A DNA stretch of 64,000 bases from Artemia franciscana (taxonomy: Eukaryota; Arthropoda; Branchiopoda; Anostraca; Artemiidae), in NCBI RefSeq assembly GCF_032884065.1, contig NC_088868.1:1734001-1798000 (forward strand), given 5' to 3'. The translations under genes and the position numbers were made by a program. Each line of letters begins with the position of its first letter. The stretch's first letter is position 1. Positions 4,511-64,000 of the stretch are shown here, piece by piece. The notes beneath the pieces are model-generated. The model was given only the letters and a program-made list of their open reading frames with translations, made no database searches and was not told the DNA's origin.

Positions 4511-6144
4511 TCAAACAATTCGTGGTAACGAACTGTAGTAAGGAGCGACCCGGCTCTATAGTAAACGAAACTACAAAAAAAAGAAATTTTGATGCTAAAA
4601 GATACATCAAAAGAATTGAATTTTCATGCTGATTCTAATACATAAGTTTCAATTAATTTAGTCTTTTTCATCAAAAGTTACGAGCCTGAGAAAATTTGCC
4701 TTATTTTGGAAAATAGGGGGAAACATCCCCTAAAAGTCATAGAATTCGGCGTATCAGAGAACCCTATAGCAAAAATTTTAAGCTCCTATCTAAAAAATGT
4801 GGAATTTCGTATTTTTTGCCAGAAGACAAATCACGGGTGCGTGTTTATTTGTTTGTTTGTTTTTTTTTGTTTTTTTTCCCAGGGGTCATCGTATCGACCA
4901 AGTGGTTCCAGAGTGTCGCAAGAGGGCTCCTTCTTACAGAAATGAAAATTTCTAGTGCCCTTTTTAGGTGATCAAAAAAATTGGAGGGCACCTCTCCCAC
5001 GTTCATTTTTTTCCAAAAGTCAACGGATAAAAATTTTGAGCCATTTTGTTCTGCATAGTCAAAAATCATAATAACTGTGTCTTTGGGAATGACTTACTCA
5101 CCCACAATCCCTGGGGGAGGGGCTGCAAGTTTTGACCAGTGTTTACAAGTGTGGGGTTGACGGTAGGGGGCTATGTGGGAGGATATTTCCTTGGAGGAAT
5201 ATGTCATGGGGAAGAAAAATTCAATGAAAAGGGCGCAGGATTATCTAGCATTACTATAAAAAAACAATGAAAAAATAAACATAAAAGCATTTTTTCAATT
5301 GAAAGTAAGGAATAGCATTGAAATTTAAAACGAACAGAGATTATTACGCATATGAGGGGTTCTAAAAATACTTTAGCATAAAGAGCGAGGTATTTAGGAG
5401 AAGATAAATACCTCGCTCTTTATGCTAAAGTATTTTTAGTAATTTTAACTATTTATTCTACGGCCTTTTTAATTCAGGGGCCATTCTTAAAGAATTGGGA
5501 CAAAACTTACGATTTAGTGTAAAGATCGAGGTATTAACGAGGGTACAAACTCCCTCGTACACATAATAAAAATATAAGAATATAACAGTTTTTTATGTAA
5601 GTTAATTCTTAAGTTACGCATATTTTTTACTAATAAAAAAATTAAAACTTCTAGTAGCCTTTTTAAGTAACCGAAAAATTGGAGGGCAGCTAGGCCTCCT
5701 TCCCCATCCCTTATTTTTCAAAATCGTCTGCTCAAAACTAAGAGAAAGCCATTTAGCAAAAAAAAAATTAATATACCAATTTCATTTCAGTAATTTATGT
5801 GCGGAGAGCCAAAATCAAACATGCATTAATTCAAAAACGTTTAGAAATTAAATAAAAAATACTAGTTTTTTTAACTGAAAGTAAGGAGCGACATTAAAAC
5901 TTAAAACGAACAGAAATTACTCCGTATATGAAATGGGTTGTACCCTCCGCAATCCCTCGCTCTTTACGCTAAAGTTTGACTCTTTGCCACAATTCTACTT
6001 TTTAAAACAATTAAAAGCCTTAGCGTAAAGAGCGAGGGATTGCGGAGGGGACAACCCATTTCATACACGGAGTAATTTCTGTTCGTTTTAAGTTTTAATG
6101 TCGCACCTTACTTTCAGTAAAAAAAACTAGTTTTTTTTATTTAA
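4511..6144 (+). mobile_element. palindrome element, copy a (near full length, 1634 bp)
   Basis: It starts TCAAACAATTCG and ends TTTATTTAA. Three inverted structures are visible: a small palindrome at the start (CAGTTCG-type arms), a hairpin at about 5350-5450 whose arms contain AAGAGCGAGGTATTT, and a large terminal hairpin at about 5872-6122 with arms of roughly 110 bp (AGGAGCGACATTAAAAC, GAGGGATTGCGGAGGG). No protein of credible length or family is encoded; open frames inside it are accidental. It sits inside LINE-A: flanks AAGGCTTGA and TTCTTGATAAC join into the uninterrupted sequence seen in LINE-B near 43,957-43,975. No multi-base target duplication is present. Confidence 0.85.
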
Positions 6145-7040
6145 TTCTTGATAACGCATTGTTAATGTAAGTATTAGATGTTAACCCACTTTGTTGTACT
6201 CCAAACTAAACTAGTATATAACAGTAAAATGCTGTATGCGATTTCAAATAAACATACGAATTACTATGCCCAAAATTAAGTACATGTGTGACAGAAAGGT
6301 TCACTCTATTCTCGGAAAAACAGTTGTGCCTGACAAAGATCGTGGAAAGCATTAGACAAAGCCTTAGACTAGGCATAATAAAAAATTTAAGCTTAAAATA
6401 TTCTGCGGATGTTGGTACCCAATGCGAGGTTAAAAACAAAATAGGTTTGGGTCTTTCACAGTCCATTCACTAATATATGGGAGCGGAAAATTTTCAAAAA
6501 TTTTGACAACATTATATGCAACAGTGATAGGCCAATATGCAATGCAATCAATAGGGTCATTTCCGCATTTAAGAGTAGATGTTACTGCTCCCCCCCCCCA
6601 AAAAAAAACAGGCACCATTGACAAAAATAAACAGTTGAAAAACTAACTAGAGCTGAGTGATTAGGGCTGGACTATCACAGCCTAAATGATGAGAACTATT
6701 GCCATCAAGATCACTCGGTTTAGACTTAAGTTTAAGCATACTATTTACAATACTTTTAGTGGATATAGGAACAACAATGCGTTGGAAAACTCTAGCAGGC
6801 AAAAATTTGGAAACTAAGCTCTGATAATGATAATGAACACTATACTCAACCTTAATAAAAGCATTTTTATAATGCCTAAGCCAAGACGAATCTGGGGTAA
6901 CATCAATGATCCCTAATGAATTAAATTTAGATTTGCAACTGACTTCCTTTCATTGTACTGCACCTTTAGGGAACCATTATAACGAACAAAATGAAGATAC
7001 CGCTTAAACTCCCCTTTTGTTTTAATTTTTATATTGAACA

Positions 7041-13990: not shown

Positions 13991-14008
13991 AATATATCTT
14001 ATAATATA

Positions 14009-15502
<1,494 letters not shown>

Positions 15503-15529
15503 TATCTTATATATATCTAATATATATCT

Positions 15530-18262: not shown

Positions 18263-21200
18263 AGGGAAACTAACCTTTGAATTACGATTTACACACGACA
18301 CAACATCATCCCAACTCTCAGATGTAATCCAAGATTCAAAGTCGAAAAGACCTTGACTTGTTATTGGCCGGTACGAAACTTTGGAGACCGAGTAATTTTT
18401 TTTAAAAACTAGCAGTGGTTTCAATTGTAGCATGAAATGATGTTTAACACCGAGGGGGAAGGGTAGTTGGAGTATTGTAAAAGGTTTTAAGGTTTGTGCA
18501 ACTAACATCCAAGCTGGTTCCACCTTTTGTAGTAGGGAAATCAACAATTTTCTTCTCATCTTTGCACAGATAATTAAGTTTAGTTCGTTTGAGTGACCTG
18601 CAATAAAAATGCCGGCATTTGGGTACTTTATATTCCCAAAGTCAAGACTTGCGTGTGGCCTGTCATGAAAACTACGACGAGAATAAGCATTCTGTCTGGG
18701 TGAATAATAAAATGAGCAAATGATTAAGTTAGTGTAAGGCCGTGGCAGGCATTTGGGATTAGTAGATATCAATATAATTTTTTTGCTATCGCCTAGACCG
18801 GGCACATGGATAAGAGTAGGAGAGAGGCAATCCTTTGTGAAAATTAAATAAAAAAGACAAGTTTTTTTTTAACTGAAAGTAAGGAGTGACATTAAACTTT
18901 AAAACGAACAGAAATTACTCCGTGTATGAAAGGGGCTGTTCCTCCCTCAGCGTCCCCCTCTTTCGTTAAAGATTTACTCTTTCTCTCAATTCTACTTTAT
19001 TAAGCAGTAAATAACTTTAGCGTAAAGAGCGGGACGTTGAGGGAGGAATAGTCCCTTTCATACACGGAGTAATTTCTGTTCGTTTTATTTTTAATGTCGC
19101 TCCTTACTTTCAGTTAAAAAAAAACTTATTTTTTTAATTTAATTTCTGAACGTTTTTGAATTAATGCATGTTTTGAGTTTGGCTCTCCGCAAACGAATAA
19201 TTAAACGAAATTTGCGTATTAATTTTTTTTGTTTGCTAGTTGGCTTTCTTTTGGTTTTGATCAGATGATTTTGAGAAAAGGAGTGGGAGAGGAGGCCTAG
19301 TTGCCCACCAATTTCTCGGTTACTTAAAAAGGCAATTAAAATTTTTAATTTTTAATGAACGTTTTTATTAGTAAAAAAATACATTACTTACAAGTTAACT
19401 TATGTTACGAACTTTTATATTCGTATAGTTTTATTATGTATATCAGGGGGTTTTCCCCCTCGTTAAAACCTCACTCTTTACACAAAAACTTTAATTTTGT
19501 CCCAATTCTTTAAGATTGACCCCTGAATCACAAAGGCTGTAGAATAAATAGTTGAAATTACTAAAAATGCTTTAGCGCAAAGAGCGAGCTATTTAGGAAG
19601 AGATGGACTCCCCTTATGCGTAATAATCCCTGTTCGTTTTATTTTTTAATGCTGGTCCTTACTTTCAGTTGAAAAAAACTTTTTCATATTTATTTTTTCA
19701 TTGTTTTTTTTTAAATAATGCTAGAAAATCCTGCTCCCCCTTCATAGAATTTCTCTTCTCCCATGAAAAAATTCTCCAAGAGAAGATCCTCCCACGTAGC
19801 CCCCTCCCCTCAACCCCCCTCCAACCAAAAATCATCCTGAAATGGTCTGTACACTTCCAAATAATCGTTACTGTATGTAAACGCTGGTCAAAGTTTGTAA
19901 CTTGCATTCCCTCCCCTGGGGACTGTGGAGGAGTAAGTGAGCCCCAAAGACATAGTTATTATGTTTTTCGACTATGCTGAACAAAATGGCTATCTCAAAA
20001 TTTTGATTCGCTGGCTTTGGGAAAAAATGAGCGTGGGAGGGGGCCTAGGTGCCCTCCAATTTTTTGGTCACTTAAAAAAGGCCACTAGAGCTTTTAATTT
20101 TCGTTAGAATGAGCCCTCTCACGACATTCTAGGACCACTTGGTCGATCCGATCACCCCTGGGAAAAAAAACAAACAAACAAATAAACACGCACCGTCATC
20201 GGTCTTCTGGCAAAAAATACCAAGTTACGCATTTTTGTAGATAAGAGCTTGAAACTTCTATAGGGTTCTCTGATACGCTAAGTGCGATGGTGTGATTTTC
20301 GTTAAGATTGTTTGACTTTTAGGGGTTGTTTCCCCTTTTTTCCAAAACAAGGCAAATTTTCTCAGGCTCGTAACTTTTGATGAGTAATTCTAAATTTGAC
20401 GAAACTTACATATGATTTCTCTTTTCATTATATTTAAATCAGCATAAAAATCCGATTCTTTTGATATATCTATTGATTTCAAAACTCCATTTTTTAGAGT
20501 TTTGTTCACTATTTAGCCGGGTCGCTCCTTACTACAGTTCGTTATGACGAACTGTTTGATCATTACTTATTCTTCTTTTTCCCCAGTGGGTGGTCAACCG
20601 GGCGAAGCTTTATAAACTCTTGAAAACCAATCATTTTAAGGTGGTCTGGATTTTGAGTCTGCACTTCAATAAGCGCAATTATATCAATATGGTTCAATTT
20701 AGCTGTTGCTTCTAACTCAAATAACATTACAAAATTCAAATTCTCGGTGTTCGTAAGGAGAAACAGGGGGAAATGATAACGTTATTTTTTTTTACCAAAC
20801 TCTATAACAACAGTTTTCGTCAAAAAAGCTTTATTCGGAGATAACTTTGGGGGGGGGGTGTAAGTACTAAAGTTAATGCTGGTAGTGGGGAGAACATCAC
20901 CTAAAATGTAATATTTTCATTTGAGTTATTGTAGGAAGGTTTGTCGTAAGGCTCAAGCTCGCCATCCTGGACCAATAGACCACTAAACCTGTTTTGATGT
21001 GGGAGGGGAACAGGTTCAGTTTTAAAAGTTTGGGGTAAATTGAGAAAGCCAGGGGTTAAAGTTTCCTGGTTTTCAAACGATTCAATGTTCAAGCTATGGG
21101 ATGGAGCGGATAAATTTTGGGGCAGATTATTTTTTACATGATGATTTTCGCATGTAGGTGGTACTTTCAGACTGGAGTTGCACTGGTAGGGTAGCCATGG

Positions 21201-21943: not shown

Positions 21944-23512
21944 TGCAAACACTTCGTGGTAGCCTAACGAACTGTAAAAAGGAGCGACCCGGCTCAATAG
22001 AAACCGAAACTCTAAGAAAAGGAGTTTTGATACCAATAGTTACATCAAAAGAATCAAATTTTAATGCTGATTTTAAATAGATAAATTTCATCAAGTTTAG
22101 TAGTAACCATCAAAAGTCTGAGAAAATTTGTCTTATTTTAGAAAATAGGGAGAAACATCCTCTAAAAGTCATAAAATATTAACAAAAATTACACCATCAG
22201 ATTCAACGTATCAGTGAACCCTACTGTAGAAGTTTCAAGCTTCTATAAAAAAAATGTGGAATTTGGTATTTTTTGCTAGAAGACAAATCACGGGTGAGTG
22301 TTTATTTGTTTTGTTTTTTTTTTCCTAGGGGTGATCGTATCGACTCATTTGTCCTAGAATGTCACGAGAGGGCTGATTCTGGCGGAAATTGAAATTTCTA
22401 GTGCTCTTTTTAAATGACCAAAAAATTGAAGGGAACCTAGTCCCCCTCCCACGTGCATTTTCTCCCAAAGTCACCGGGTCAAAATTTTGAGATAACCATT
22501 CTGTTCAGCTTAGTTGAAAATCTAATAAATATGTCTTTGGGGATGACTTATCTCCCCCCAGTCCCAAGGAGAGGGGCTGCAAATTACAGCTTTGACCATT
22601 GTTTACATATTGCAATTGTTAATTATGAAGTGTACAGACGTTTTCGGGGGGACTTCTTTGCGTTGGGGTTGGGATGGGTCGCGGGAGTAGGTTACGTCGG
22701 AGGATCTTTCCACGGAGGATTTTTTCGTAAGGGAAGAGAATTTCCATGAAGGGGGCGCATGACTTTTTAGCATTATTAAAAAAAAAACAATGAGAAAATA
22801 TTTTTTTTCAACTGGAAGTAATGAGCAGCATTCAAACTTAAAACGAACATAAAATATTACCTATATAAGGGATTTGTCTCATCCACAATACCTTGCTCTT
22901 TACGCTAAAGTATTTTTAGTAATTTCAACTATTTATTCTAAGGCCTTTGTGATTCAGGGGTCCTTCTCAAAGCTTTGGGACAAAATACAAGCTTTAATGT
23001 AAAGAACAAGGTTTTGACGAGGGGGCGAACCCCCTCATATACGTAATAAAAATACACAAATATAGAAATTCGTGATATAATTCGTAAGCTACGTATGTTT
23101 ATTATTAACAAAAACGTTCTTAAAAAATTGAAAAATCTAGTTGCATTCCAAAATCGGAGGGCAGCTAGGCCTCCTCCCCAACCCCTTTTTCTGTCAAAAT
23201 CGTCCGATCGAAAATATGAGAAAGCCATTTAGCCAAAAAAATATTGATGTATAAATTCCGTTTTAATTATGCATGTGCGGTGAGCCAAAATCAATACATG
23301 CATAAATTAGAAAAGTTCAGAAATTAAATAAAAAAAAAAACGAGTTTTTTAAACTGCAAGTAAGGAGCAGCATTAAAACTTAAAACGAACCGAAATTATT
23401 CCGTATATTAAAAGTGGTTGTCCCCTTCTCAACGCCTCACTTTTTACGCGAAAGTTTTATACTCTTTTAAACAGTAGAGCTGAGGGAAAGAGTCGAACTT
23501 TAGCGTAAAGAG
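21944..23512 (+). mobile_element. palindrome element, copy c, left part
   Basis: It begins with a mutated TGCAAACACTTCGTGG and runs in family order to the first arm of the terminal hairpin, where it is cut after TTTAGCGTAAAGAG (23,499-23,512) by the Penelope-like insertion. The missing end lies at 27,546-27,674. Confidence 0.85.
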
Positions 23513-23821
23513 ACAAATACAACGTAGAGACAATAGGGAAAATTTCAAGACAGTGGAAATTATTTCTGTAGATATTTCGGCCCTATGTCCAAGGGCCGTC
23601 TTCAGCACAATACAAGAATAAGAGAGAAACTATATATATATATATATATATAAAAGAACCTACATCAAATTGTGAGGATTAAAACTGAATAATTAAAAAC
23701 ACTTTTTAAAACTTTTTTTAAAAATAGCCCTAGCATCCTTACTTCAACGAAGTTTAACCAGGACTGGCGAAAAGAATGAAATGAGAATATAAGCTCATTC
23801 AAAATGAAGAGAATAAAATGA

Positions 23822-24509
23822 TTAGATGCAATTTCTTAAAGATAATCTTGCTTGTTTAGCAGCCTGTCTCAAAGGCCTTTTCGTAGTTGGATCAGTACTA
23901 TTATAAATCGGTTTAGTAAAATATTTTGTTAGATCATTTTTAATTAAATTTGAGTATAAAGAATTTAGTGAGTATTCCCCCAAGTCCCTGTTCAAAGAAA
24001 TATTATTATTTATTTTGAGATTAATTTCGATTGATTCTCGAACCACCTGTTTTAATCCCAAATCATTACTAATGAGTGAAGAGTTTTCAAAAAGTATCAT
24101 GTGGGACGGATTATTAAATATATGCCAACCTAAAGCAGAATCAAAGGAGTTGTTGGGACTATTTGAAATTAAGGCCTTGTCTATGTCATTTTTATGCTGT
24201 TTTAACCTTTTGTCTAGATTCTGATGGGTCCTGCCGACATAGTATTTTCCGCAATCACATGGTATTTGATAGACCCCTCTTTGGCGAGTAACTGGGGTCT
24301 TATCTTTACCCGAATTTAAGAAATTGATGATTTTAAAATTATTAGCAAAAACTACGTACAGATTATTTTTTGTGCAAATATTTTTCACTTTTGTTGTGAT
24401 CTTTGGGATATACGGAAGATAGACAATATTTAAGGGCTTATCAGTAGCCTCACATTGTGAAGTATCTTCTTCGATTTTACAAGAATGTCTTTTTACTCTA
24501 CGGTTAATT
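23822..24509 (-). pseudogene. C-terminal part of a Penelope protein: GIY-YIG endonuclease
   Basis: The frame reads FLNSGKDKTPVTRQRGVYQI, then PCDCGKYYVGRTHQNLDKRL, then KQHKND. It contains the GIY-YIG core (GVYQ...YYVG), the conserved Arg (DKRL), the Cys pair and His of the Penelope endonuclease, a later GWHIFNNPSHMILFE block where other family members have E before HI, and a basic tail (KRPLRQAAKQAR). In Penelope elements this domain nicks the target DNA for target-primed reverse transcription. Upstream sequence (24,389-24,509) still fits the linker. The RT is gone, cut off by palindrome element d. A close relative lies at 29,055-29,500. Confidence 0.88.
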
Positions 24510-24515
24510 ATTTTA

Positions 24516-25354
24516 TCAAACAGTTCGTGGTAACGAACTGTAGTAAGGAGCGATCCTGCTCAATAGTAACCAAAACTCTAAAAATTGAATTTTGATATCA
24601 ATAGCTACATCAAAAGAATCGCATTTAATGCTGATTTTAAATATATAAGTTTCATCAAGTTTAGTCTTAGTCATCAAAAGTTACGAGCCTGAGAAAATTT
24701 GCCTTATTTAGGAAAATAGGGGGAAACACGCCCTAAGAGTCGTAGGATCTTAACGAAAATGACACCATCAGATTCAGCGTATCAGAGAACCCTACTGTAG
24801 AAGTTTCAAGCTCCTATCTACAAAAATGTGGAATTTTGCATTTTTTGCCAGAAGACAATCACGGGTGCGTGTTTATTTGTTTGTTTTTTTTTTTGTTTTT
24901 TTTTGTTTGTTTTTTTTCAGGTGTCATCGTATCGACCAAGTGGTCCTAGAATGTCACAAGAGGGCTCATTCTAACGTAAATGAAAAGTTCTAGTGCCCTT
25001 TTTAAGTGACCAAAAAAATTGGAGGGCATCTAGGCCCCCTCCCACGCTAATTTTTTTCCCAAAGTCAACGGATCAAAATTTTGAGATATCCATTTTGTTT
25101 AGCATAGTCGAAAATCATAATAACTATGTTTTTGGGGATGACTTACTCCCCCACAGTCCCTGGGGATGGGGTTGCAAGTTACAAACTTCAACCAGTGTTT
25201 ACATATAATAATGGTCATTGGGAAGTGTACAGACGTTTTCAGGGGGATTTTTTTTTGGTTTTGGGGGTAGGGTTGAGGGAGGAGGTTATGTGGGAGGATC
25301 TTTCCTTGGAGAAATATGCCATGGGGGAAAAAATTCAATGAAAAGGTCGCAGGA
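24516..25354 (+). mobile_element. palindrome element, copy d (truncated at the 3' side)
   Basis: It starts TCAAACAGTTCGTGGTAACG, follows the family for about 840 bp and stops at AAGGTCGCAGGA, before all of the hairpins except the 5' one. It sits in the Penelope insertion. Confidence 0.85.
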
Positions 25355-25688
25355 CGAATCTGGTCACGTTAGGAAAAAACGTCAAATTAAGAGCTTAATA
25401 TACAATGCTGGGTGTTCGGAGCCTCTCTATTATGGAGTATAATTTGAAAATAACACAACTATACGAGCGATAAAACATATATACCACAGCCATAACTCAA
25501 CTAACGAAAGAACTGCTAAGAGATAACACAACTATAAAGCGAAAACAGGTGAAAACTAACGGGAAAATAAACGAACTAAGAGGTGGAAGGGGCCCAGAGA
25601 AAAAATATAATCCTTTTTCAATTTTGAGCCTAACTTCCGCAAAGGAGTAATAATGTCAGAAGCCCCGAAATACCGAATTATTTTCTTT
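25355..25688. other. unidentified 330-bp sequence between palindrome elements d and e
   Basis: It begins CGAATCTGGTCACGTTAGG and has no match elsewhere in the window and no long frame. It contains two close repeats (AACACAACTATA at 25,453 and 25,525). It may be the end of another element, to which the loss of the 3' half of copy d could be linked. Confidence 0.5.
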
Positions 25689-27422
25689 TCAAACAGTTCG
25701 TGGTAAGGAACTGTAGTAAGGGGCGACCCGGCTCAATAGTAAACGAAACTCTAAAAAACGGAATTTTGATGCTAAAAGATACATCAAAAGAATCGAATTT
25801 TTACGCTGATTCTAAATATATAAATTTCAATTAATTTAGTCTTTGTCATCAAAAGTTACGAGCCTGAGAAAATTTGCCCTATTTTGGAAAAAAGGGGGAA
25901 ACATCCCCTAAAAGTCATAGAATCTTAACGAAAATCACACTATCGCATTCGGTATATCAGAGAACTCTATAGCAAAAATTTCAAGCTCCTATCTAAAAAA
26001 TGTGGAATTTTGTATTTTTTGCCAGAAGACAAATCACGGGTGCGTGTTTATTTGTTTGTTTGTTTTTTTTTTTGTTTTTTTCCCAGGGGTCATCTTATCG
26101 ACCAAGTGGTCCTAGAATGTCGCGAGAGGGCTCATTCTAACGGAAATGAAAAGTTCTAGTGCCCTTTTTAAGTGACCAAAAAATTGGAAGGTAAATAGGC
26201 CCCCTCCCATGCTCGTTTTTCCAAAAGTCAACAGATTAAAATTTTAAGATAGCCATTTTGTACAGCATAGTCGAAAACCATAATAACTATGTCTTTGGGA
26301 ATGACTTACTCCCCCACAATCCCTGAGGAGGGGCTGCAAGTTACAAACTTTGACCAGTGTTTACATATAGTAATGGTTATTGGGAAGTGTACATACGTTT
26401 TCATGGGGATTTTTTGGTTTGGGGGTGGGGTTGATGGGAGAGGGCTTTGTGGGAGGATCTTTCCTTTGAGGAATATGTCATGGGGGAAGAAAAATTCAAT
26501 GAAAAGGGCGCAGGATTTTCTAGCATTACTATAAAAAAAACAATGAAAAAAAATATATGAAAACGTTTTTTCAAATGAAAGTAAGGAATGGCATTGAAAT
26601 TTAAAACGAACAGAGATTATTACGCATATGAGGGGTTCTAAAAATACTTTAGCATAAAGAGCGAGGTATTTAGGAGGAGATAAATACCTCGCTCTTTATG
26701 CTAAAATATGTTTAGTGATTTCAACTGTTTATTCTACGGCCTTTTTGATTCAGGGGTCATTCTTAAAGAATTGGGACAAAATTTACGATTTAGTGTAAAG
26801 AGCGAGGTATTAACGAGGGTACAAACCCCCTCGTACACATAATAAAAATATAAGAATATAAAAGTTTGTTATGTAAGTTAATTCTTAAGTTACGTATATT
26901 TTTTACTAATAAAAACGTTCGTTGAATATTAAAAGTTTTAGTAGCCTTTTTAAGTAACCGAAAAATTGGAGGGCAGCTAGGCCTCCTTCCCCACCCCTTA
27001 TTTCTCAAAATCGTCTGATCAAAACTAATTTAGCCAAAAAAAAATTAATATACTAATTTCATTTCAATGATTTATGTGCGGAGAGCCAAAATCAAACATG
27101 CATTAATTCAAAAACGTTCAGAAATTAAATAAAAAAAACTAGTTTTTTAAACTGAAAGTAAGGAGCGACATTAAAACTTAAAACGAACAGAAATTACTCT
27201 GTATATGAAATGGGTTGTCCCCTCCGCAATCCCTCGCTCTTTACGCTAAAGTTTTTAATTGTTTTAAAAAGTAGAATTGTGGCAAAGAGTCAAACTTTAG
27301 CGTAAAGAGCGAGGGATTGCGGAGGGGACAATCCATTTCATATACGGAGTAATTTCTGTTCGTTTTAAGTTTTAATGTCGCTCCTTACTTTCAGTTAAAA
27401 AACTAGTTTTTTTTTTATTTAA
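25689..27422 (+). mobile_element. palindrome element, copy e (full length, 1734 bp)
   Basis: The best-preserved copy. It begins TCAAACAGTTCGTGGTAAGG and ends TTTATTTAA. The internal hairpin at about 26,636-26,712 (arms with GCGAGGTATTT/AAATACCTCGC) and the terminal hairpin at about 27,157-27,402 (arms with AGGAGCGACATTAAAAC and CTCCGCAATCCCTCGC) are nearly perfect. No protein is encoded. Confidence 0.88.
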
Positions 27423-27545: not shown

Positions 27546-27674
27546 TTTAGCGTAAAGAGCCAGGTGTTGAGAAGGGGTCAACCCGTTTTATATACAGAAT
27601 AATTTTTGTTCGTTTTAAGTTTTAATGTCACTTCTTACTTACAGTTTAAAAACTTGTTTTGTTTTTTTATTCAA
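27546..27674 (+). mobile_element. palindrome element, copy c, right end
   Basis: The second arm of the terminal hairpin resumes at the duplicated TTTAGCGTAAAGAG and continues through GTTCGTTTTAAGTTTTAATG to TTTTATTCAA. Together with 21,944-23,512 it completes copy c. Confidence 0.85.
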
Positions 27675-28754: not shown

Positions 28755-29529
28755 AAACAAATACAACGTAGAAACAATAGGGAAAGTTTTTTCAAGACAA
28801 TGGAAATTATTTATGTAGATATTTCGGCCCTATGTCCAAGGGCCGTCTTCAGCACAATACAATACTATATATATATATAAAAGAACTTACATCAAATTGT
28901 GAGAATTAAAATTGAATATAAAAACACTTATTAAAACAATTTTTTTTTTTAAATATAGCCCTAGCATCCTTACTTCAGCGAAGTTCAACCAGGACTGGCG
29001 AAAAGAATGAAATGAAGAAATATAAACTCATTCAAACTAAAGAGAATAAAATGATTAGATGCAATTTCTTAAAGCTAATCTTGCTTGTTTAGCAGCCTGT
29101 CTCAAAGGCCTTTTCGTAGTTGGTTCAGTACTGTTATAAATTGGTTTAGTAAAATATTTTGTTAGATCATTTTTAATTAAATTTGAGTATAAAGAATTTA
29201 GTGAGTATTCCCTGTTCAAAGAAATATTTTTATTTATTTTGAGATTAATTTCAATTGATTCTCGAACCACCTGTTTTATTCCCAAATCATTACTAATGAG
29301 TGAAGAGTTTTCAAAAAGTATCATGTGGGACGGATTATTAAATATATGCCAACCTAGAGCAGAATCAAAGGAATTGTTGGAACCATTTGAAATTAAGGCC
29401 TTGTCTATGTCATTTTTATGCTGTTTTAACCTTTTGTCTAGATTCTGATGGGTCCTGCCGACATAGTATTTTCCGCAATCACAGGGTATTTGATAGACCC
29501 CTCTTAGTGTGGTCTTCGTCGCTATTTTT
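28755..29529 (-). mobile_element. truncated PLE-2 insertion with an 11-bp target duplication
   Basis: GGTCATATAGG occurs at 28,744-28,754 and 29,530-29,540. The 775-bp insert has the PLE hairpin GGCCCTATGTCCAAGGGCC, a short (TA)n, the C-terminal GIY-YIG frame with the active-site start cut off (29,500-29,055: ...MILFENSSLISNDLG...), and at its right end AGTGTGGTCTTCGTCGC, which is start-of-ORF sequence in the opposite orientation. The partner duplication carries the empty site, TTTAAAGTCATATAGAATACC near 58,715-58,735. Confidence 0.9.
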
Positions 29530-30021
29530 GGTCATATAGGATTCCCAAAAAAGCTATCAGCGGCATCTGAAGAAGATGTTGAAACAAACTGAGAGTTCAC
29601 TAGGCAATTGGATTTGAAAATGGAACTTGATGAGTAAGTCGAGGAATTGAAATTCGTTTTTGGTGAAGGTAAGTAATATACGACCTCAGTTAAACATTAA
29701 GTCACGTTCAAGTTTATCCCAATTCTCAAAGCATCTTAAAAGCTGACATCCTATGGCCCTGATGTCCAGGATATTTATGGATGCCCGAAATTTAGGTAGA
29801 TTTTGACTAAATATGTTTTCCGAAGAATTTTACAATACATTTTTTCAATTTTCGTGTGCTATAATTAGTTAAAAGATTAAGAATATTAGCTAATTGCAAA
29901 CATCTAAAGTGTTATATAAAATATACGATCTATACTACAAAATACATGTGCATTATAACTACTTCTTATATTATGGTAAATTTAATTGTTGTAATTTATA
30001 ATGGAATTTAGATATAAATAA

Positions 30022-31594: not shown

Positions 31595-34400
31595 GAAAAT
31601 ATGTAGTCAAAACATAAGTAAAGATGAATATACTGGACGGGGTGAACAGATCGAACGTACGATCAACAGAAATTAAATTTAGTTAAACCAAAATTTAATT
31701 GGAATAACCACAAAAAGGACTAAGGGTGCCACGCCATAGGCCTTATGGAAGTTAGAGCCTTACCGATTTCTGCTAACTAAAAAAAATTTATTTCAAATAT
31801 TACTTATCCTATAGCTATAACATTGGATCATCATAGGAAACAGAAATTAACAAGAATTAATATCATTATTCATTATAAAACCAATCGAATTTCAACAGTT
31901 TTTCGGTTCATCGTTATTGTTATAATGATTTTTCTTTTTTTATGTATTTGTGAAAAAAAAAATTAAAAATACACTGTTTTTCATAATAATCAAATGAAAC
32001 CCATGGACAGAGGTAAATTGTTAATCTCTTCTGTAAGCCTATATAGGCTCTGAGGTATTATTCCTTTGCGATAATAATTCTTTTTGTTTATTTTATCAAA
32101 CAGTTTGTGGTAAAGAGCTATAGGTAAGGACCGACAAGGCTCAATAGTAACCTAAAATCTAAGAAAAAGGGTCTTGATAACAATAGATGCATCAATGATC
32201 TCCCTCCCGATATTCTGTAATAATTGTTCTGGTAGGACCCCCCCCCCCTTGGAAAAAAACACCCATCAATTATATTTCTTCTGGTAAAACATTGGAAAAT
32301 TCCTCATTTTCGTATATAGTGGCTTGAAACCTCTTCAGTAGGGCTCTCTAATATGCTGAATCTGATGGTGTGATCTTCGTTAAAATTACTTGAAATTTTT
32401 AGGGTATATCTCCCCATTTTCAGAAATTGAGCATATTTCCTCAAGCTCGTTATTTTTAATATGTAATGTTAATTAATGATTTTTTGTATATTGAATCATC
32501 ATCGAATTTAATTCTTTTGATGGCAGCTACCCCTTACGCTCCGTTTTTTTTTTACAAAGTCATCCCGATTAAAATTTTGAGAAACCTGTTGCGTTCAACA
32601 TAGCTGAATAACTCAATAATTATGGCTTTAGGAACGACATGACCCCCAACCCCCCAGTCCCTTGGGGAAGAACTGTAAGTTATCAAATCGACCAATTGTT
32701 TACGTCTATTATTTTCCAGTGAGGAGAGCAGTGTACGGAGGGAGTTTTACAGGGGATTAATTTACGTGGGAGGAACTTTCGACGGAAGAGTTTTCCATGA
32801 GGGGAGGGAATTATTCATGAAGAGGGGGCTTGAAGTATCAGAATATTTTGAAAAACGATCAGTAATTAAATGAAAAAATCAGCTGAAAATATGAAGTAAC
32901 ATCAAAACTCAAAACAGCCAGAGATTATTCCGTATATGAAGGGGTTTCTCCCCTCTAAAATATCTTGCTCTTTACGCTAAAGTTTGACAGTTGTCCTAAT
33001 TTCTGTAGGACGACTTCTGAAAAAAAAGAGTTTTTTCATTGATAGAATTAGTGTTACAAGCTTATTGAAATTGCTAACAAAAAAAAAAATTAGCGTGAAG
33101 AGCAAGGCAGGGAAGACAATCCCTTCGTTTACGGGTGTTCGTAAATATGTAGTAAAGATGAAAATCCTGGAGCTGGTGAATAGATTGAACGTAAGACCAA
33201 CAGAAATTAAAATTAGTAATTTAGTTAAACCTGTTAAAGCTTTACTGATTTTTTGCTAACTAAAAAAAAAATTATTTCAAATAATATTTTTCTTGTAGCT
33301 ATAACATTGGATCATCATAGGAAACAGAAACTATTAAGAATTAATATCATTATTCATTATATAACCAATTGACTTTCAACAGTTTTTTGGTTCATCATTA
33401 TTGTTATAATAATTTTTACTTTTTTATGTCTTTGTGAAAGAAAACCATAATATTAAAAATACACTATTTTTTATAATAATCAAATAAGACTCGGGCCGTA
33501 CGATTTGTATGGGCAGAGCTACATTATTGACCTTATCTGTAAGTCTATTTAAGCCCTGTGATGTTATTCCTTTGTGATAATAATTCTTTAGGTTATTTTA
33601 TCAAACAGTTTTTGGTAAAGAGATGTAAGTAAGGTCCGACAAGGCTCAATAGTCACCTAAAATCTAAGAAACAGAGTGTTGATAACAATAGATGCATCAA
33701 TGATCTACCTCTCGATCTTCTGGAATAATTGTTTTGATTGGACCCCTCCCCTCTGGAAAAAAAAACACGCATCAGTGATCTTTCTTTTGGCAAAACATTG
33801 GAAAATTCCTCATTTTGTATATAGGGGCTTGAAACCTCTTCAGTAGGGCTCTCTAATATGCTGAATCCGATGGTGTTATTTTCGTTAAAATTACTTGAAG
33901 TTTTTGGGCTATATCTCCCCATTTTCTAAAATTGAGCAAATTTTCTCAGGATCATAATTTTTAATGTGTAATGTTTAACTTAATAAATTTTTGTATATTG
34001 AATCATCATCAAATTCAATTTTTTTGATGGCAGCTACCCCCTACGCTCCGTTTTTTTTTTACAAAGTCATCCGATTAAAGTTTTGATAAACCTGGTTTGT
34101 TCAGCATAGCTGAAAAATTCAATAACTGTACCTTAAGGAACAACATGACCAGTAACATTAAAACTCAAAATAGCTAGAGATTATTCCGTATATGAAAGGG
34201 TTTCTCCCCTCTACAATATCTTGGTCTTTACCCTAAAGTTTAACAGTTGTCCTAATTTCTTTAGAGCGACTTCTGAAAAGCAAGATTTATTTTGATTGAT
34301 TTAATTAGAATTACAAGCTTATTGAAATGGCTCAGAAAAAAAAACTTAGCGTGAAGAGCAAGATGGCAATGACAACCCCTTCATTTACGGTTGTTGATTT
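31595..34400. repeat. internal tandem duplication within segmental copy 1
   Basis: Unit 1 (about 31,595-33,145) and unit 2 (about 33,146-34,400) share AGTAAAGATGAA, ATCAACAGAAATTAAA-type text, GCTATAACATTGGATCATC and a palindrome element each. Copy 2 of the segment (58,660-62,823) has only one unit, so the duplication arose in copy 1 after the segments separated. Confidence 0.75.
32096..33145 (+). mobile_element. palindrome element, diverged subtype, copy g
   Basis: It begins TCAAACAGTTTGTGGTAAAG and keeps family order but with many changes (for example GGAACTTTCGACGGAAGAG). It stops within the second arm of the terminal hairpin, where the tandem-duplication junction lies. Confidence 0.75.
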
Positions 34401-34453
34401 TGAGTTTTAATGTTGCTCCTAACTTTCAGTTGTAAAATCCTTTTTTTATTTAA
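33601..34453 (+). mobile_element. palindrome element, diverged subtype, copy h
   Basis: It begins TCAAACAGTTTTTGGTAAAG and ends TTTATTTAA. It is the product of the tandem duplication, shortened by a deletion in its middle near 34,147 (CATGACC joined to AGTAACATTAAAACTC). Confidence 0.75.
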
Positions 34454-37015: not shown

Positions 37016-37222
37016 ATGAATGAGCTTTTGAACCGTGGTGTATCGCTAGACTTAGTTAGACCTCTTATGTACATGTACCGCCATATGAAAGCAAAAATAC
37101 GTATACCTGGAAGCAATTTGCTGACTGATGGGTATATACCAATTCATGTCGGGGTTAAGCAGGGTGCGGTTACTTCTCCCACGGTTTATAATCAAACCGT
37201 AAAGTTTGAGCTGGAAGCGTTT
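37016..37222 (+). mobile_element. LINE reverse-transcriptase fragment
   Basis: The frame reads MNELLNRGVSLDLVRPLMYM, then IRIPGSNLL and IHVGVKQGAVTSPTVYN. GVKQGAVTSPxxYN is RT block B of non-LTR elements (usual form VRQGxxLSPxLFN). Only about 70 codons remain. The right edge joins the end of a palindrome element directly at 37,222. Confidence 0.85.
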
Positions 37223-37405
37223 AGCTTACGCTAAAGTTTGACTCTTTACCACAATTCTGCTTTTTAAGACAATTAAAAGCTTTAGCATAAAGAGCGAGGG
37301 ATTGCGGTGGGGACAACCCATTTCATATACGGAGTAATTTCTTTTCGTTTTAAGTTTTAATGTCGCTCCTTACTTTCAGTTAGAAAAACTAGTCTTTTTA
37401 TGTAA
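37222..37405 (+). mobile_element. palindrome element, copy j (3' end only)
   Basis: It contains the loop and second arm of the terminal hairpin (TTACGCTAAAGTTTGACTC to CTTACTTTCAGTTAGAAAAA) and an end TTTATGTAA. The rest is absent, so this is a truncated or recombined copy. Confidence 0.8.
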
Positions 37406-42217: not shown

Positions 42218-43922
42218 TTAAACAAAAAAAAATAAGTTTTTTAAAATGAAAGTAAGGAGCGACATTAAAACTTAAAACAAACAGAAATTACTCAGTATAT
42301 AAAAGGGTCTTTTCTTCCTCAACGCCCTGCTCTTTACGCTAAATTTTGATTCTTTCTCTTAACTCTACATTTTAAAACAGTAAAAAAACTTTAGCGTAAA
42401 CAGCGGGGCATTGAGAAGGAAAAGAACCTTTCATATACGGAGTAATTTCTGCTCGTTTTGATGTCACTCCTTACTTTCATTTAAAAAAACTTTTTTTTTA
42501 ATTTCTGGATGTTTTTGAATTAATGCATGTTTTGATCTTGGCTCTGTACAAAAATAATTAAAACGAAATTTGTATATTAATTTTTTTGGGCTAAATGGCT
42601 TTTTCATAGTTTTAATTGGAACATTTTGAGAAAGAAGGAGCGAGGGAGGAGGCCTAATTGCCTTCCAATTTTTCGATTACTTGAAAAGGCAACTATAACT
42701 TATAATTTCTTACGAACGTTTTCATACGTAAAAAAACACGTAACTTGCGAATAAAATTACGTAGTGAACTTCTATATTCGTATGTTTTTATTGCGTCTAT
42801 GAGGGGGCTCACCCCTCGTCGATACCTCGCTCATTACATTAAAGCCTAAATTTTGTCCCAATTCCTTAAGAACGACCCCTGAATCACTAAGGCAGTAGAT
42901 TAAATAGTTGAAATTACTAAAAACACTTTAGTGTAAAGAGCGATGTATTACGAGGAGGTAAACCCCTCATAGGTGTAATAATTTCTGTTCGTTTTAAGTT
43001 TTAATGCTGCTTCTCACTTTCTGTAGAAAACACTTTTCATATTTATTTTTTCATTGTTATTTTTTTTAATGCTACAAAATCCTGTGCCCCCTATATTGAA
43101 AGTCTCTTCCCCCATAAAAAGTTCCTCCGTGGAAATATCCTCCCACATAACCACCCCTCAACTCCCCCCCCCCTCAAAACTGAAAATCCCCCTCAAAACT
43201 GAAAATCCCCCTGAAAACGTCTGTACACTTCTCAGTAACCATTACTATATGTAAACACAGGTCAAAGTTTGTAGCTTTTAGCCCCTCCCACGGAGACTGC
43301 GGGGGAGTAAGTCGTCCCCAATGACATAGTTATTAGGTTTTTCGACCATGGTGAATAAAATGGTCATCTCAGAATTTTGATCCGGCGACTGTGGGGGGAA
43401 AAAGAGCGTAGGAGGGGGCCTAGGGGCCCTCCAGTTTTTATGGCCACTTAAAAGGGCACTAGAACTTTTGATTTCCTTTAGAATCAACCCTTTTGCGACA
43501 TTCTAGGACCACTGAGTCAGTACGATCACCCCTGGGGAAAGAAAACAAATAAATACGCATCCGTTATTTGCCTTCTGGCAAAAAATGCGAAATTCCACAT
43601 TTTTGTAGATAGGGGCTTGAAACTTCTACAATAAGGTTCTCCGATATGCTGAATATGATGGTGTGATTTTCGTATGATTTTTGTATGATCGTATGACTTT
43701 TAGGAGATGTTTCCCCCTATTTTCTAAAATGAGGCAAATTTTCTCAGGCTCGTAACTTTTGATGGGTAAGACTAATTTTGATGAAACTTATTTATTTAAA
43801 ATCAGAATTAAAATGCAATTCTTTTGATCTAACGATTGGTATCAAAATTCCATTTTTTAGAGTTTCGGTTACTATTGAGCCGGGTCGCTCCTTGCTACAG
43901 TTCGTTACCACAGACTGTTTGA
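42218..43922 (-). mobile_element. palindrome element, copy f (full length)
   Basis: In element orientation it starts TCAAACAGT at 43,922 and ends GTTTAA at 42,218. Flanks GTATGTAA and TATAAAAC join to the uninterrupted LINE-A sequence GTATGCAATATAAAAC (near 4463-4478). The terminal hairpin arms lie at about 42,246 and 42,480. The centre carries a local duplication (CCCCCTCAAAACTGAAAAT repeated near 43,170-43,210). Confidence 0.87.
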
Positions 43923-56470: not shown

Positions 56471-56611
56471 AATAGGGATGATACCTTTTTATTGACAGTG
56501 AAATATAAAATTATTTAACTGGATATTTCGAACACATATACAGTGTTCATCATCAGCAGTAAAACTAAAGAAATGAACAAAAATAAACAAAATTTATACC
56601 TAATAAACTAA

Positions 56612-59638: not shown

Positions 59639-61342
59639 TCTAACATCGTAAGAGAATCTAACAAGATGTGATTGAATACAAGTAGGTTAGTGAAATGGGC
59701 CCCTTTGGTCTCTAACTGACACCTAAACTTTAAAATGTATACCTACCAGCTATCTTACCATATTAATCATATCAATTGCCTTTTTGTGTCTTTTGAAACA
59801 TATCCTTCTATATTAACAAAAAGGCAAATGAATTCCTGAGTACATGTGTACATGAGAGGCTTTTCTTTACCAAATGATTAAGTTATTCTAAAGTAAGCTT
59901 TAATGAACTAGCCGCAAATCAACAGACACGGAATAGAATTAAGCATGTGATAACTTAAAATTGAACAAACTAACTTCATAAAGACAATATTAGATGAAAA
60001 TGAAATATTAAACTATTTGACGTAGATTTCATAATTTTGTGAATAAGACGTTACATAGATTAACTTACTTCGAGCAACAACAATACCTCTGCAATTTGTC
60101 CTCTACAGGGCGAATTACCGATTATTAAAACTTTCCCAGACGTTTTAAACACCCTAGGTTTTTTTTCAGACATCCTCAAAAGAGTTTATTTGTCTTCCAT
60201 TTTTCAAACCCCTGGACTATTTCAACGGTTGTATGAATAAATTTGATCAAAATAAATAAATAACAAATAGTTCATTTTAGTAAATAATACATAAATTTAT
60301 TTTATATATATGATATAGATTATATGTAATACATAATATAGTAATATAGTTAGCAGTAAATAAGCAGATAAATACATAGTAATAAAAGCAATAAAAAATA
60401 AAATAAATTAATCATTAGAATTTAGTAATTTGATTTCTAAGAAACTACCTTTCAACTTATGGCCAAGTTCACCGGCAACATTTATTGGAAAGATGTCAAG
60501 CAGCTGTGCAATTTATTTTCTAAGAATTAAAGTGCGGCTCCTACGGCTCCTGTTTAATATGTATTGAAGTCCCCTCCTCCTTTCTCAATTTTATTTGAAC
60601 AAGAGAGACAAAGCTAGGAAGGCCCACGCAAGCAATACAATGCTATTCGTGTCAGGTTGATTTGTGAGCAAGTTTTTCGATAGAAAAACTATTTAAACAA
60701 AAATTAAGAACCAGTCAAACCTGACCCTAGTAGATATAAAGTCCTATAATAATTTAATCTTAGGGAAGGGTAAAAATATTATTTATGAACATAACAAAAT
60801 AAAAAAAATAATAAAATATGTATTCACAACAAAAGTAAAAATAAAAATGTTGCAGTTGATGAATGAAACGAACGTTAAAACAACAGAAACTAAAATTAAT
60901 AATTCACTCAAACTCAAATAAAACTGAAATCACCACGTAAGGAATAGGGGGTACCAACTCATAGCTCTTCTAAAGGTTCATTCTTTACCTATTCCGTACA
61001 AATTGAAAAATTATTTATGTTAAACATTACTTTTACTATAGCTATAATATTGACTCATAATAGGATATAGAAACTAATTGCAATTAGCATCATTATTTAT
61101 TAAAAATTTAAATTTTAACAGTTTTACGGTTCGTCGTATTTTTATTATGATTTCTCTGTTTTATGTGCTTTATTTGTGAAAGAAAAGCTAATTTTGAAAT
61201 ATACATTATTTTAACAATAATCTGATGTCATCCAGGCAGAGCGATATCAATGGGAAGAGGTACGTTATTAACCTCATCTACAAACCCATATTAGCCCTGT
61301 GACATTATTCTTTGCAATAAAATTTCCTTTTAATTACTTTAT

Positions 61343-62536
61343 CAAACAGTTCATGATAAAGAGCTGTAAGTAAGGAGCAATACGACTCTATAGTAACCTA
61401 AACTTTAAGAAACAGAATCTTGATAACAATAGATGCATCAAAAGAACATAATTAGATGATGATTCAAAATACAAAAATTCATATATTTGGACATTACACA
61501 TAAAAACTATGAGCCTGAGAAAATTTGCTCGATTTTGAAAATGGGAAGAAACACCCCAAAAATTTCAAGTAATGCTTACAAAAATCACACCATCAGGTTC
61601 AACTTAATAGGAAGCTCCACTGTAGAGGTTTCAAGCACCTATATACAAAATCGAGGAATTTTCCAAATTTTTTTTTGCCAGAAAAAAACCACAAGTGCGT
61701 GTTTTTTTCTTGTTTTCCTGAGGGGCGGATCATATAAAAACAATTACTCCAAAAGATCGGGAGATGGATCATTTGATCGAAAACCAAAGGCTCTAGTACC
61801 CTTTTAATGTGACCAAACATATTGGATAGTAGCTACCCCTCGCCCATTTTTTTCCAAAGTTGTCCGATCAAAATTTTAAGAAACCTATTTTATTCAGTAT
61901 AGCTGAAAAATTCAATAGCTATGCCTTTGGGGATAACAAAATCCCTCCCCCCAACAGTCCCTGAGGAAAGGGCTGTAAATTACCAAATATACCCATTGTT
62001 TATTTACACTAATTTTCAGTGAGGAGGAAAATGTACGGAGGGAATCTTACGAGATATTGTTTCACATTGGAGGAACTTTTCACTGAAAAAATTTCCGTAA
62101 GGGGAGTGTGGTGTGTCAGAATAATTGGAAAAACATTCAAAAATTAAATATAAAGAAATGAAGCTAAATTAAGGAGCAACATTAATACTCAAAACGACCA
62201 GAAATTATTCCTCATGTAAAATAGCTATAACCCCCCCCCATCCCCACCCCTAACAATATCTTGATCCTTGCGCTAAAGTTTGACTGTTGTCCTAATTTAT
62301 TTATGAACGACTTGTGAAACACAAGAGTTGTTTGAATTATAATTACAAGCTTAGTAAATTATAATTGATAATTAGTAAATTATAATTATAATTGAATTAT
62401 AATTACAAGCTTAGTAAAAGTGCTAAAAAAAAACTTAACGCGACGAGCAAAGTAACCCCCTCATTTACGAAATTTTTGTTTTGAGTTTTAATGTTTCTCC
62501 TACCTCTCAGTTGAAAAAAACATATTTTTTATTCAA
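61343..62536 (+). mobile_element. palindrome element, diverged subtype, copy i
   Basis: It begins TCAAACAGTTCATGATAAAG and ends TTTATTCAA. It is the counterpart of copies g and h in the other segment and therefore predates the segmental duplication. Its terminal hairpin is much eroded. Confidence 0.78.
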
Positions 62537-62879
62537 TGACGAATAACTATATAATAAATAAGAAGGATTTTTTATCAAGAGTCGAATTTTTATCATTATA
62601 TTTGAATAAAATAGAACAAAAGTTAATTTAAAAAGAACCTCCGAAAAACCAATTTTTCAAAAAGAAATAAGCGACTACATTTAACTAACAAAGCAAATAA
62701 AAAGGTGTCCAATGTAGGAAGCGATAGAATTTGTTGCACCTGTAGTGAATTCTAAGCCACCTTTTCACTCAAATGATGTGAAAGTGTCCATCCCTATGTA
62801 GCATAAAATATTAAAATCACTTAAATCAAGGAGGCACACTCGTGCCTCTATAAAGAGGCGACACACGACAATGTTAAGC

Positions 62880-63480
62880 GATCTTCGGTTCCAATGGTTG
62901 CAGACGGATGGGGAGAGTTGCATTTCGTAGCCCGAGCTCCAACTCAGAAACCTGCAAAATTTCATCCCCCTCCAACTTTTTCTTCATGGGGAAAATCTGG
63001 CCGAAAGTTTCGACCTGTCAACCCAAGCCCCCCTTTAACGTTGTCCGATCGGGCTGAAATTCACAAGTTAAGGTCCCCTAGGGCCCAGGAGCTTATCCGT
63101 GAAATTTCAGCTTGATCCGATAACTCCTTCCCTGTTTTCCACAAACCACGCATAGCCACTTAAAATTCATTTACTTTTTTTTCCTAGACGCCTACAGGTC
63201 ACATCCGACATCGGATCTGGGTGTACGAAGACTCATTCGATGCGGAATTCTCCGAGTAAGTGCCCATGAAAGTTTCGTAGGAAAATCTTAACCCCCCGAA
63301 AGTTTCGACCCTCCAACCCCCCCACCCCTTTTAACGTTGTCCGATAGGGCTGAAATTCACAAGTTAAGGTCCCCTACGGCCCAGGAGCTTATCCGCGAAA
63401 TTTCAGCTTGATCCGATAACTCCTTCCCTGTTTTCCAGAAACCACCCATTAGCTATTCAATTAACGGATTTCTCTCCGTA
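62880..63480 (+). repeat. GC-richer repeat, two copies of a roughly 120-bp unit
   Basis: AACGTTGTCCGAT(C/A)GGGCTG through GATCCGATAACTCCTTCCCTG and CCACAAACCAC-type text occurs at about 63,038-63,150 and 63,338-63,450, 300 bp apart, each preceded by GAAAGTTTCGACC. Base composition is clearly richer in GC than the surroundings, which suggests a different element. No credible protein. Confidence 0.8.
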
Positions 63481-63540
63481 AGAGCCCATGTTAATTTGAA
63501 ATTTTTAAAAGCTATTGAGAAGTTATATTTACACACATGC

Positions 63541-63613
63541 AAGTTATTAGCTCAGTTGGTAGAGCGTGAGACTTTTAATCCTCGGGTCAAGGGTTCAAGT
63601 CCCTTACGGGCGG
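63541..63613 (+). tRNA. tRNA-Lys(TTT)-like sequence, acceptor stem broken (pseudogene or SINE head)
   Basis: A box TAGCTCAGTTGG (63,548-63,559) and B box GGTTCAAGTCC (63,592-63,602) are near consensus. The anticodon loop CTTTTAA (63,572-63,578) carries TTT, which reads lysine codons. The T stem (AAGGG/CCCTT) is perfect. The 3' acceptor strand ACGGGCG would need CGCCCGT at the 5' side, but AAGTTAT is found, and the anticodon stem (TGAGA/TCCTC) has mismatches. A T8 run at 63,614-63,621 could stop RNA polymerase III. Transcription is possible; normal tRNA function is unlikely. Confidence 0.7.
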
Positions 63614-63739
63614 TTTTTTTTCACAACATCAAAAAAATTTTGATAACACCTGGACAGCTTATCATTTGAGAGATAACAGAATATTAGCTTCTTATGAGCA
63701 AAAGAAACATTTCGGTCATTCTATCTATTTTTTTTTCTA

Positions 63740-64000
63740 TTTTATACAATGATTTAAAAGCGGGGGGGGGGGTTCCTCTCCTAATTCCTGTACGAGGAGT
63801 ACAGGAATTATTAAATTACATCCACCATGGATTGTAGAAAAACGTACAGAAATAATATGAAAAAAACTTCGTTTTCTTAAAGAGTTAAAGAGGCTGCGTC
63901 CCAAAGTCGAACCTTAAAACGTACAGGAATTAGAAGAGGCAGTTGGGGGGCTGCCGCCCCCCAAACCCCCAGCTTTTAAAGACTCTTTTGTACAGGTTTT
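63740..64000. repeat. hairpin-rich end of an unknown element
   Basis: An inverted repeat AATTCCTGTAC/GTACAGGAATT stands at 63,780-63,809. A third GTACAGGAATTA lies at 63,921-63,932, and a GC hairpin GGGGGGCTGCCGCCCCCC at about 63,944-63,961 is followed by AAACCCCCAGC. The layout resembles a transposon terminus, but the window ends before it can be judged. Confidence 0.45.

Follow-up and report, generated by a model that had tools for sequence, protein, structure and literature searches.

The repeats scattered through the analysed stretch of Artemia franciscana DNA (64,000 nucleotides, hereafter the window) form, by their anatomy, a new Helitron2-type family of this species with an unusual doubled 3' tail, and do not constitute a new class. 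They are most likely non-coding mobile DNA that spreads by rolling-circle transposition with the help of the enzyme of another element. Their Helitron/Helentron-like, non-autonomous nature, already proposed by a sequence-only reading of the window, is well supported: it follows from two clean empty sites without a duplication of at least 2 bp, the asymmetric ends, the 5' hairpin, the subterminal inverted repeat and the 3' palindrome, together with a read-through-like composite and a sister family of the same design, K, with RepHel-type coding sequence downstream of its 5' end. Judged by anatomy and behaviour, the family is very probably a non-autonomous rolling-circle transposon of the Helitron2 type (HINE-like).

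Copies, ends and target site

A blastn comparison of positions 4511-6144 with the window finds related sequence at every one of the ten places listed by the sequence-only reading. The family is thus real, but the ten places are neither ten separate insertions nor ten full copies (Table 1). Copies a, b, e and i are complete, and both ends are also present in the shorter j (1195 bp) and g (853 bp); the proper 3' end is missing in c, d and f, and h is a 3' fragment. Nor are the start and the end fixed, as had been thought. The exact start TCAAACAGTTCG occurs at only three places in the window (24516, 25689 and, on the minus strand, 20548, which belongs to copy b), and the exact AAAAACTAGTTTTT near the end likewise at only three (6122, 27134 and 27398, of which 27134 is an inner arm), so that both are to be regarded as consensus sequences.

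Table 1. Positions of the repeat copies, their structural parts and element K in the window.
Feature	Positions	Strand
Copy a, complete non-autonomous element, 1634 bp, TC...TTTATTTAA followed by T	4511..6144	+
5' hairpin of copy a, with one mismatch; consensus CAGTTCG-TGGTAA-CGAACTG	4516..4535	+
5' copy of the subterminal inverted repeat (ATIR), AACTGTAGTAAGGAGCGAC, which shares nucleotides with the right arm of the hairpin	4531..4549	+
Long hairpin, inner arm: the element 3' end in inverted orientation, with the same TTTATTTAA tip	5846..5977	.
3' copy of the subterminal inverted repeat, in copy a GTCGCACCTTACTTTCAGT, directly upstream of the 3' palindrome	6100..6118	+
3' palindrome AAAAACTAGTTTTT and terminal TTTATTTAA	6122..6144	+
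Copy b, complete	18844..20559	-
Copy c, 5' end GCAAACACTTCG and inner arm, without proper 3' end	21945..23532	+
Composite mobile unit d + spacer + e	24516..27422	+
Composite part: d, 3'-truncated	24516-25354	+
Composite part: spacer, 334 bp	25355-25688	+
Composite part: e, complete	25689-27422	+
Solo 3' end adjoining e	27547..27674	+
Copy f, 5' end on +, interior 32195-32522 inverted, without 3' end, right boundary approximate	32096..33143	+
Copy g, paralogue of f, with both ends and its interior inverted	33601..34453	+
Copy h, 3' fragment only	37222..37405	+
Copy i, complete	42218..43922	-
Copy j, both ends, upstream flank common with f and g	61342..62536	+
Element K, second family of the same design, running off the window; 5' TCAAGGAGGCACACTCGTGCCTC; inner inverted 3' end from ~63852	62826..64000	+

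Some of these copies are related by duplication. Copies f, g and j have upstream sequence in common (f-j over ~1.1 kb at 71%, f-g over ~345 bp at 85%), and the interior is inverted in both f and g; to judge from this alignment, the three are most likely paralogues of one larger duplicated unit and descend from one insertion. Copy a is repeated together with its flanks on another contig, C7 (G000:C7:11460078-11464730, locus L002), with 99.5% identity over 4.65 kb, and this pair is, as the shared flanks indicate, a duplicated segment and not a second jump. Both regions lie on large contigs, and the pair may reflect either a recent segmental duplication or an assembly duplicate. In the 1.27-Gb assembly, in which the window corresponds to G000:C6:1734001-1798000, a search with the family returned 21,625 first-look candidates, the best 40 of which were scored. 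Of these 40 places 28 were read, namely L001-L008 with 1.5-kb flanks and L009-L028 as stretches of 9.3-9.7 kb; they represent the best matches to copy a, and L029 was read in addition. The junction set comprises the window and L002-L029, with L001 left out because it is copy a itself.

The family ends are TC...TTTATTTAA, with the 5' start TCAAACAG. The 5' end is ordered as TCAAA, the hairpin (CAGTTCG-TGGTAA-CGAACTG) and AGTAAGGAGCGAC, and the 3' end consists of the palindrome AAAAACTAGTTTTT, or variants of it, followed by TTTATTTAA, and is not CTRR. The palindrome at the start, the long terminal hairpin and AAAAACTAGTTTTT before the end (at 6122), all noted in the sequence-only reading, are present. 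That reading was also correct in finding no ordinary terminal inverted repeats, but it missed an asymmetric subterminal one: AACTG-TAGTAAGGAGCGAC (nt 21-39) aligns, in reverse-complement orientation, to a segment located ~25 nt before the 3' terminus. The two partners lie mostly at ~nt 20 and ~24-30 nt from the 3' end, and a score of at least 12 is reached by 32 of 43 paired ends, compared with 7 of 500 60-mers drawn at random from the sequence analysed, in which copies of the family are included. The repeat is less striking in individual copies, where 7-18 of 1000 shuffles reach it in a, b, e and i and 948 do so in j, and for K the corresponding value is 135 of 1000. The stem of the 5' hairpin is paired in 359 of 392 cells across 49 copies, a level attained by only 19 of 1000 shuffles. 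Compensatory changes are not in excess in this hairpin (2 cells, a value reached by 259 of 1000 shuffles), and the stem, with 6.6% substitutions per site, varies more than the loop, with 3.4%. Compensatory evolution of the hairpin is consequently supported neither by the shuffles nor by the stem and loop rates.

An intact 5' end was found at 55 places in the junction set, 49 of them with distinct flanks. The base preceding the element is A in 30 of these 49, T in 13, G in six and C in none, with f, g and j counted three times although they are not independent; this distribution differs from that of the bases before T in the window (p ~4e-6), and the second base before TC is T in 34. On the 3' side, the next base is T at 48 of 49 script-called outer sites, and at all 35 sites left after 14 of the 49, including the sole non-T, were dropped by eye as internal, unclear or mis-set. 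The proposed A^T insertion therefore holds insofar as T follows and A is preferred, but it is not strict, and the target is better written as N^T. The TT target dinucleotide of HINEs and Helentrons is not what these 49 flanks display, so that the family is not classed as HINE in the narrow sense.

The absence of a multi-base target duplication, likewise claimed earlier, is confirmed by two clean empty sites, neither of which shows a duplication of at least 2 bp or a deletion. In the first, the composite element of L013 is inserted in another copy of the family, and its joined flanks correspond to L023:677-846 with 0 gaps and 159 of 170 positions identical; they also match L016:3202-3033 and L013:3206-3037 without interruption (158 of 170). 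In the second, the L020 element lies within a repeat whose empty copies include L012:1129-986, where the junction shows no gap. A third empty site (L028 compared with window:52214-52027) has a nearby indel in a T-run. An element TC...AA inserted before T and an element C...AA with a 1-bp T duplication give identical sequence and are indistinguishable.

These ends bear on the possibility that the family belongs to the canonical Helitron1 type and is mobilised by P0001, the young and abundant Helitron of this genome, which we regard as very unlikely. Helitron Rep sequences are very abundant in the genome (7,436 first-look candidates, best 150 scored), and profile searches with PF14214 and PF05970, in which the best 150 matches were scored for each, look dominated by one canonical Helitron family, judging by the near-equal scores among the matches listed. 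At the one locus of P0001 that was read (L029), the element encodes an intact 1,649-aa RepHel with the motif RGLPHAH; the 5' TC and the A before 30 of 49 insertions would also suit it. However, the canonical element ends in CTAG preceded by a GC-rich hairpin (L029, L032), whereas the family ends in TTTATTTAA without CTRR, has a 5' hairpin and is inserted after a base other than A at 19 of 49 places. Furthermore, a 5' hairpin and an ATIR are described for Helitron2 and not for Helitron1 in the passages on these types (PMC3627910). Remnants matching the canonical Helitron of L029 also occur in the window, at 13992-14102 and 14968-15525.

The doubled 3' end and the composite unit

In copy a, the long hairpin is formed by arms at 5846-5977 and 6015-6146, each of 132 nt and 95% complementary. 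An inverted match to the last 130 nt is present just inside the 3' end in 27 of 27 full-length copies (a set that includes the twin of copy a), with arms 82-100% identical; in 25 of the 27 it begins within 6 nt of the tip and reaches nt 110 or beyond. The tip of the inner copy is again TTTATTTAA, after which tttctgaacg or close variants follow, and this flank, by which the script defined its class of 13 inner sites, is a single ancestral junction. Because the inner tip corresponds exactly to the terminus of the element and the next base is T, insertion of an inverted 3' end according to the element's own target rule would fit better than a random inverted duplication. Homogenisation of the two arms, a possible hint of snap-back copying, was considered and rejected: the mean arm identity within copies (94.6%) slightly exceeds that between arms of different copies (92.7%), but the own inner arm is the nearest to the terminal arm in only 4 of 26 cases.

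It is conceivable, though rather doubtful, that the head-to-head doubling of the 3' end serves a function and is not a scar. In that case an ancestor would have received an inverted copy of the exact terminus at a site that follows the target preference of the element itself. The ~130-bp hairpin formed in this way, which two families have retained, one of them with RepHel genes, could act as a reinforced terminator or as a protected or bidirectional end for the single-stranded intermediate.

The unit formed by d, the spacer and e recurs whole in L004, L013, L016 and L027, and L014 contains a partial version in which the spacer is shortened and the 3' module differs. Among the five complete composites, spacer identity is 97.9-99.4%, while the 60-nt flanks on both sides differ by eye. 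This comparison indicates that the composite, which begins with the d 5' end, carries 334 bp of DNA foreign to the family and terminates with the e 3' end, has moved several times. The combination of the 5' end of one copy with the 3' end of another is what read-through would produce, by analogy with the read-through model published for Helraiser (PMC4778049, in the passages on that model).

The long hairpin invites a different explanation, namely that the family is a foldback or MITE-type cut-and-paste DNA transposon in which the long inverted repeat is the recognised end. The high identity of the arms in all 27 full-length copies would agree with it. Nevertheless, the hairpin occurs at one end only, with its inner arm away from the element boundary, and the outer ends of the composite are supplied by two different copies, d (5') and e (3'). 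The inverted repeats at both ends and the duplication of at least 2 bp by which a DDE MITE or foldback element is recognised were not found, the two clean empty sites contradicting the latter directly, and this explanation is accordingly very unlikely.

The sister family K and the search for an autonomous partner

A Helitron2-type assignment is further informed by the second family of the same design, K, whose left junction in the window is A followed by TCAAGGAGGCACACTCGTGCCTC. On contig C10, a K 5' part (97% over 1050 bp from L031:98) and a K 3' part (L032:781-1805, ending CATATTA, followed by T) flank an intact open frame of 2,492 codons, here called element C. Approximately 230 bp of K matches both sides of this frame, so that element C is not simply K with a gene added. 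For six related coding sequences, at loci whose frames are all shorter than that of C10, a 0.9-kb stretch situated ~2.5 kb before the conserved N-terminal match was read as well. The K 5' terminus is present in five of the six (L042, L044 with TCTA, L045, L046 and L047), each time with different flanks, and was not found in the 0.9-kb stretch of L043. A K 5' end thus lies 2.2-2.8 kb upstream of RepHel-type coding sequence, in the same orientation, at six of seven loci, the intervening sequence having been read for C10 only. The base before the K 5' end (A in four, G in two and T in one of seven junctions, including that of the window) resembles that of the first family. The K 3' end is known from one locus, where a canonical Helitron fragment abuts, and from the matching end of the inner arm.

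In the 1,967-aa part of element C in L033, Pfam identifies DUF6570 (5.4e-12), Helitron_like_N (1.3e-26), PIF1 (2e-27) and UCH (1.5e-17), as well as Pif1_2B; the 541-aa N-terminal part in L031 has no domain match. No endonuclease fused to the RepHel is found in either part (Pfam, E <=0.01), the C-terminal domain being UCH, and element C is for this reason Helitron2-like in the narrow sense. Its Rep motif FWRIEYQTRGAPHVH carries the F/Y-x-R signature. According to passages of the Helentron description (PMC4067079), F/Y-x-R is a Helentron signature, and the variable position of RGS-P-H is S in Helentrons and L in Helitrons; this second diagnostic is A in element C.

Several observations on K and element C are recorded here in their own right. 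K contains a tRNA-like sequence at 63547-63606 (Rfam RF00005, 42.1 bits) with CTTTTAATC in the anticodon region, which is not called by ARAGORN; the same stretch is visible by eye in L031 at ~815-880. At three of the six loci with a K 5' end, K/C lies inside or beside copies of the first family (L031 ~97, L044 ~770 and L047 ~151). UCH domains occur in two Helentron-like coding sequences, at the C-terminus in C (L033, C10) but close to the beginning of the frame in A (L034, C4112).

In the genome loci read, no autonomous RepHel element with TCAAACAGTTCG...TTTATTTAA ends was found. A search of the genome with a Helentron Rep-motif peptide yielded loci with long frames. The upstream stretches of eight B/B2 coding sequences (1.3-3.2 kb, two of them 99.9% alike, with the element 5' ends beyond their reach) gave no match to the family at 1e-4. 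Family A (C4112) was rejected as a partner: a copy of the first family is located ~1.1 kb upstream of its ORF, but oriented away from it. Similarly, TCAAACCACAATTCGG (L030:2078) was discarded as the 5' end of family B, for the homology continues upstream. Between two tandem B elements, L030:968-1073 resembles the interior of copy b (window 19540-19429; 70% over 112 bp, 1e-5). A 134-bp segment upstream of a B2-type coding sequence is inverted between copies (L037:242-375 and L038:253-386), which recalls the interior of f and g. The window also contains open frames with GVYQIPC/YVGRT-type sequence (23822-24559, 29055-29531 and 54038-57049), presumably remnants of GIY-YIG/Penelope-like retroelements.

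Such a search outcome could be taken to indicate a genuinely new rolling-circle class with its own enzyme, convergent with Helitron2; moreover, neither an N^T target with A preferred nor a doubling of the 3' end is mentioned in the published descriptions compared, as far as their passages go. Against this, K agrees with the family in 5' design, target preference and the doubling of its 3' end, and a RepHel-UCH coding sequence is located downstream of the K 5' end, which makes a new class most improbable. The suggestion of a new class made in the sequence-only reading was not borne out either, its traits being already described in passages on Helitron2 (PMC3627910) and on Helentrons and HINEs (PMC4067079); the Fusarium elements FoHeli1/2, with a TCAG start and hairpin, an ATTTT end and A/T-rich insertion, are comparable (PMC5148889, in the passages on them). 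Finally, that the repeats are satellite-like or segmentally duplicated sequence without mobility of their own scarcely deserves credence: f, g and j, and a with its C7 twin, do belong to larger duplications, but the common ends are sharp, the 49 5' flanks differ, and the two clean empty sites contradict it.

Relation to described elements and proposed mechanism

With Helitron2 (PMC3627910), as presented in its descriptive passages, the family shares hairpins at both ends, a 5' T, the absence of a duplication, and an asymmetric inverted repeat whose 3' copy lies ~25 nt from the end, directly upstream of the palindrome; K/C adds a RepHel without an endonuclease match. The Helitron2 features found in the family itself are the 5' hairpin, the asymmetric subterminal repeat, the 3' palindrome without CTRR, and insertion before T without duplication. 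In contrast, the family 5'-ATIR starts 20 nt from the end and occupies nt 21-39, whereas in the Helitron2 passages it lies 0-2 nt from the end; the N^T target also departs from the TTTT^T/C reported for the algal family.

The non-autonomous Helentrons HINE/DINE-1, in the passages concerned (PMC4067079), are likewise non-coding and present in many copies, with a 5' palindrome, subterminal inverted repeats, a short 3' palindrome and a T-containing target that is not modified. The family differs from them in that its repeat comes after the hairpin instead of being the hairpin, in its long hairpin derived from an inverted 3' end, in the preference for A over T before the insertion, and in that the related element C has UCH and no endonuclease match. 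FoHeli1/2 of Fusarium oxysporum (PMC5148889) resemble it in the TC start, the hairpin in the first nucleotides, the A/T-rich 3' end without CTRR and the A/T-rich target, but are ~5-6 kb long with their own RepHel, and the passages on them mention no doubled 3' end. Helraiser/HelibatN (PMC4778049) offer a parallel for read-through, in which the 3' hairpin is missing and an end further downstream is used, with flanking DNA carried along; as described in the relevant passages, these are of Helitron1 type, with a CTRR end, no inverted repeats and an A^T target. Taken together, the ends fit a described type, but not a described transposase-carrying family; neither such a match nor a target duplication of at least 2 bp, the two observations that would have spoken against the sequence-only reading by its own account, was made.

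Exact 20-mer scans of viral and genome contig collections gave 0 matches, although relatives near the source genome may be absent from these collections, and the sequence strings of the element had no match in the literature text searched. A description of the family was not found in the passages retrieved on Artemia Helitrons and interspersed repeats (including PMC8406910), crustacean Helentrons, Helentrons with ubiquitin, or Helitron inverted duplication.

The rolling-circle chemistry, the order of its steps, the role of the doubled 3' end and the identity of the RepHel acting in trans are what we infer. A RepHel protein from elsewhere would nick the 5' end of the element, marked by TC and the hairpin, and would then peel off and copy one strand. 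Copying would halt at the 3' end, presumably recognised by the subterminal repeat, the short palindrome and TTTATTTAA, and the resulting single strand would be joined into a target immediately before T.

Rolling-circle elements are reported to make up 8.81% of the A. franciscana genome (PMC11492255), families not being separated in the passages on them, and the termination experiments described in passages of PMC4778049 were performed on a Helitron1, Helraiser. With the present assignment, a seemingly very abundant Artemia repeat would gain a mechanism and correct ends, and its natural composites and doubled 3' ends provide a sequence-level test of Helitron2-type termination.
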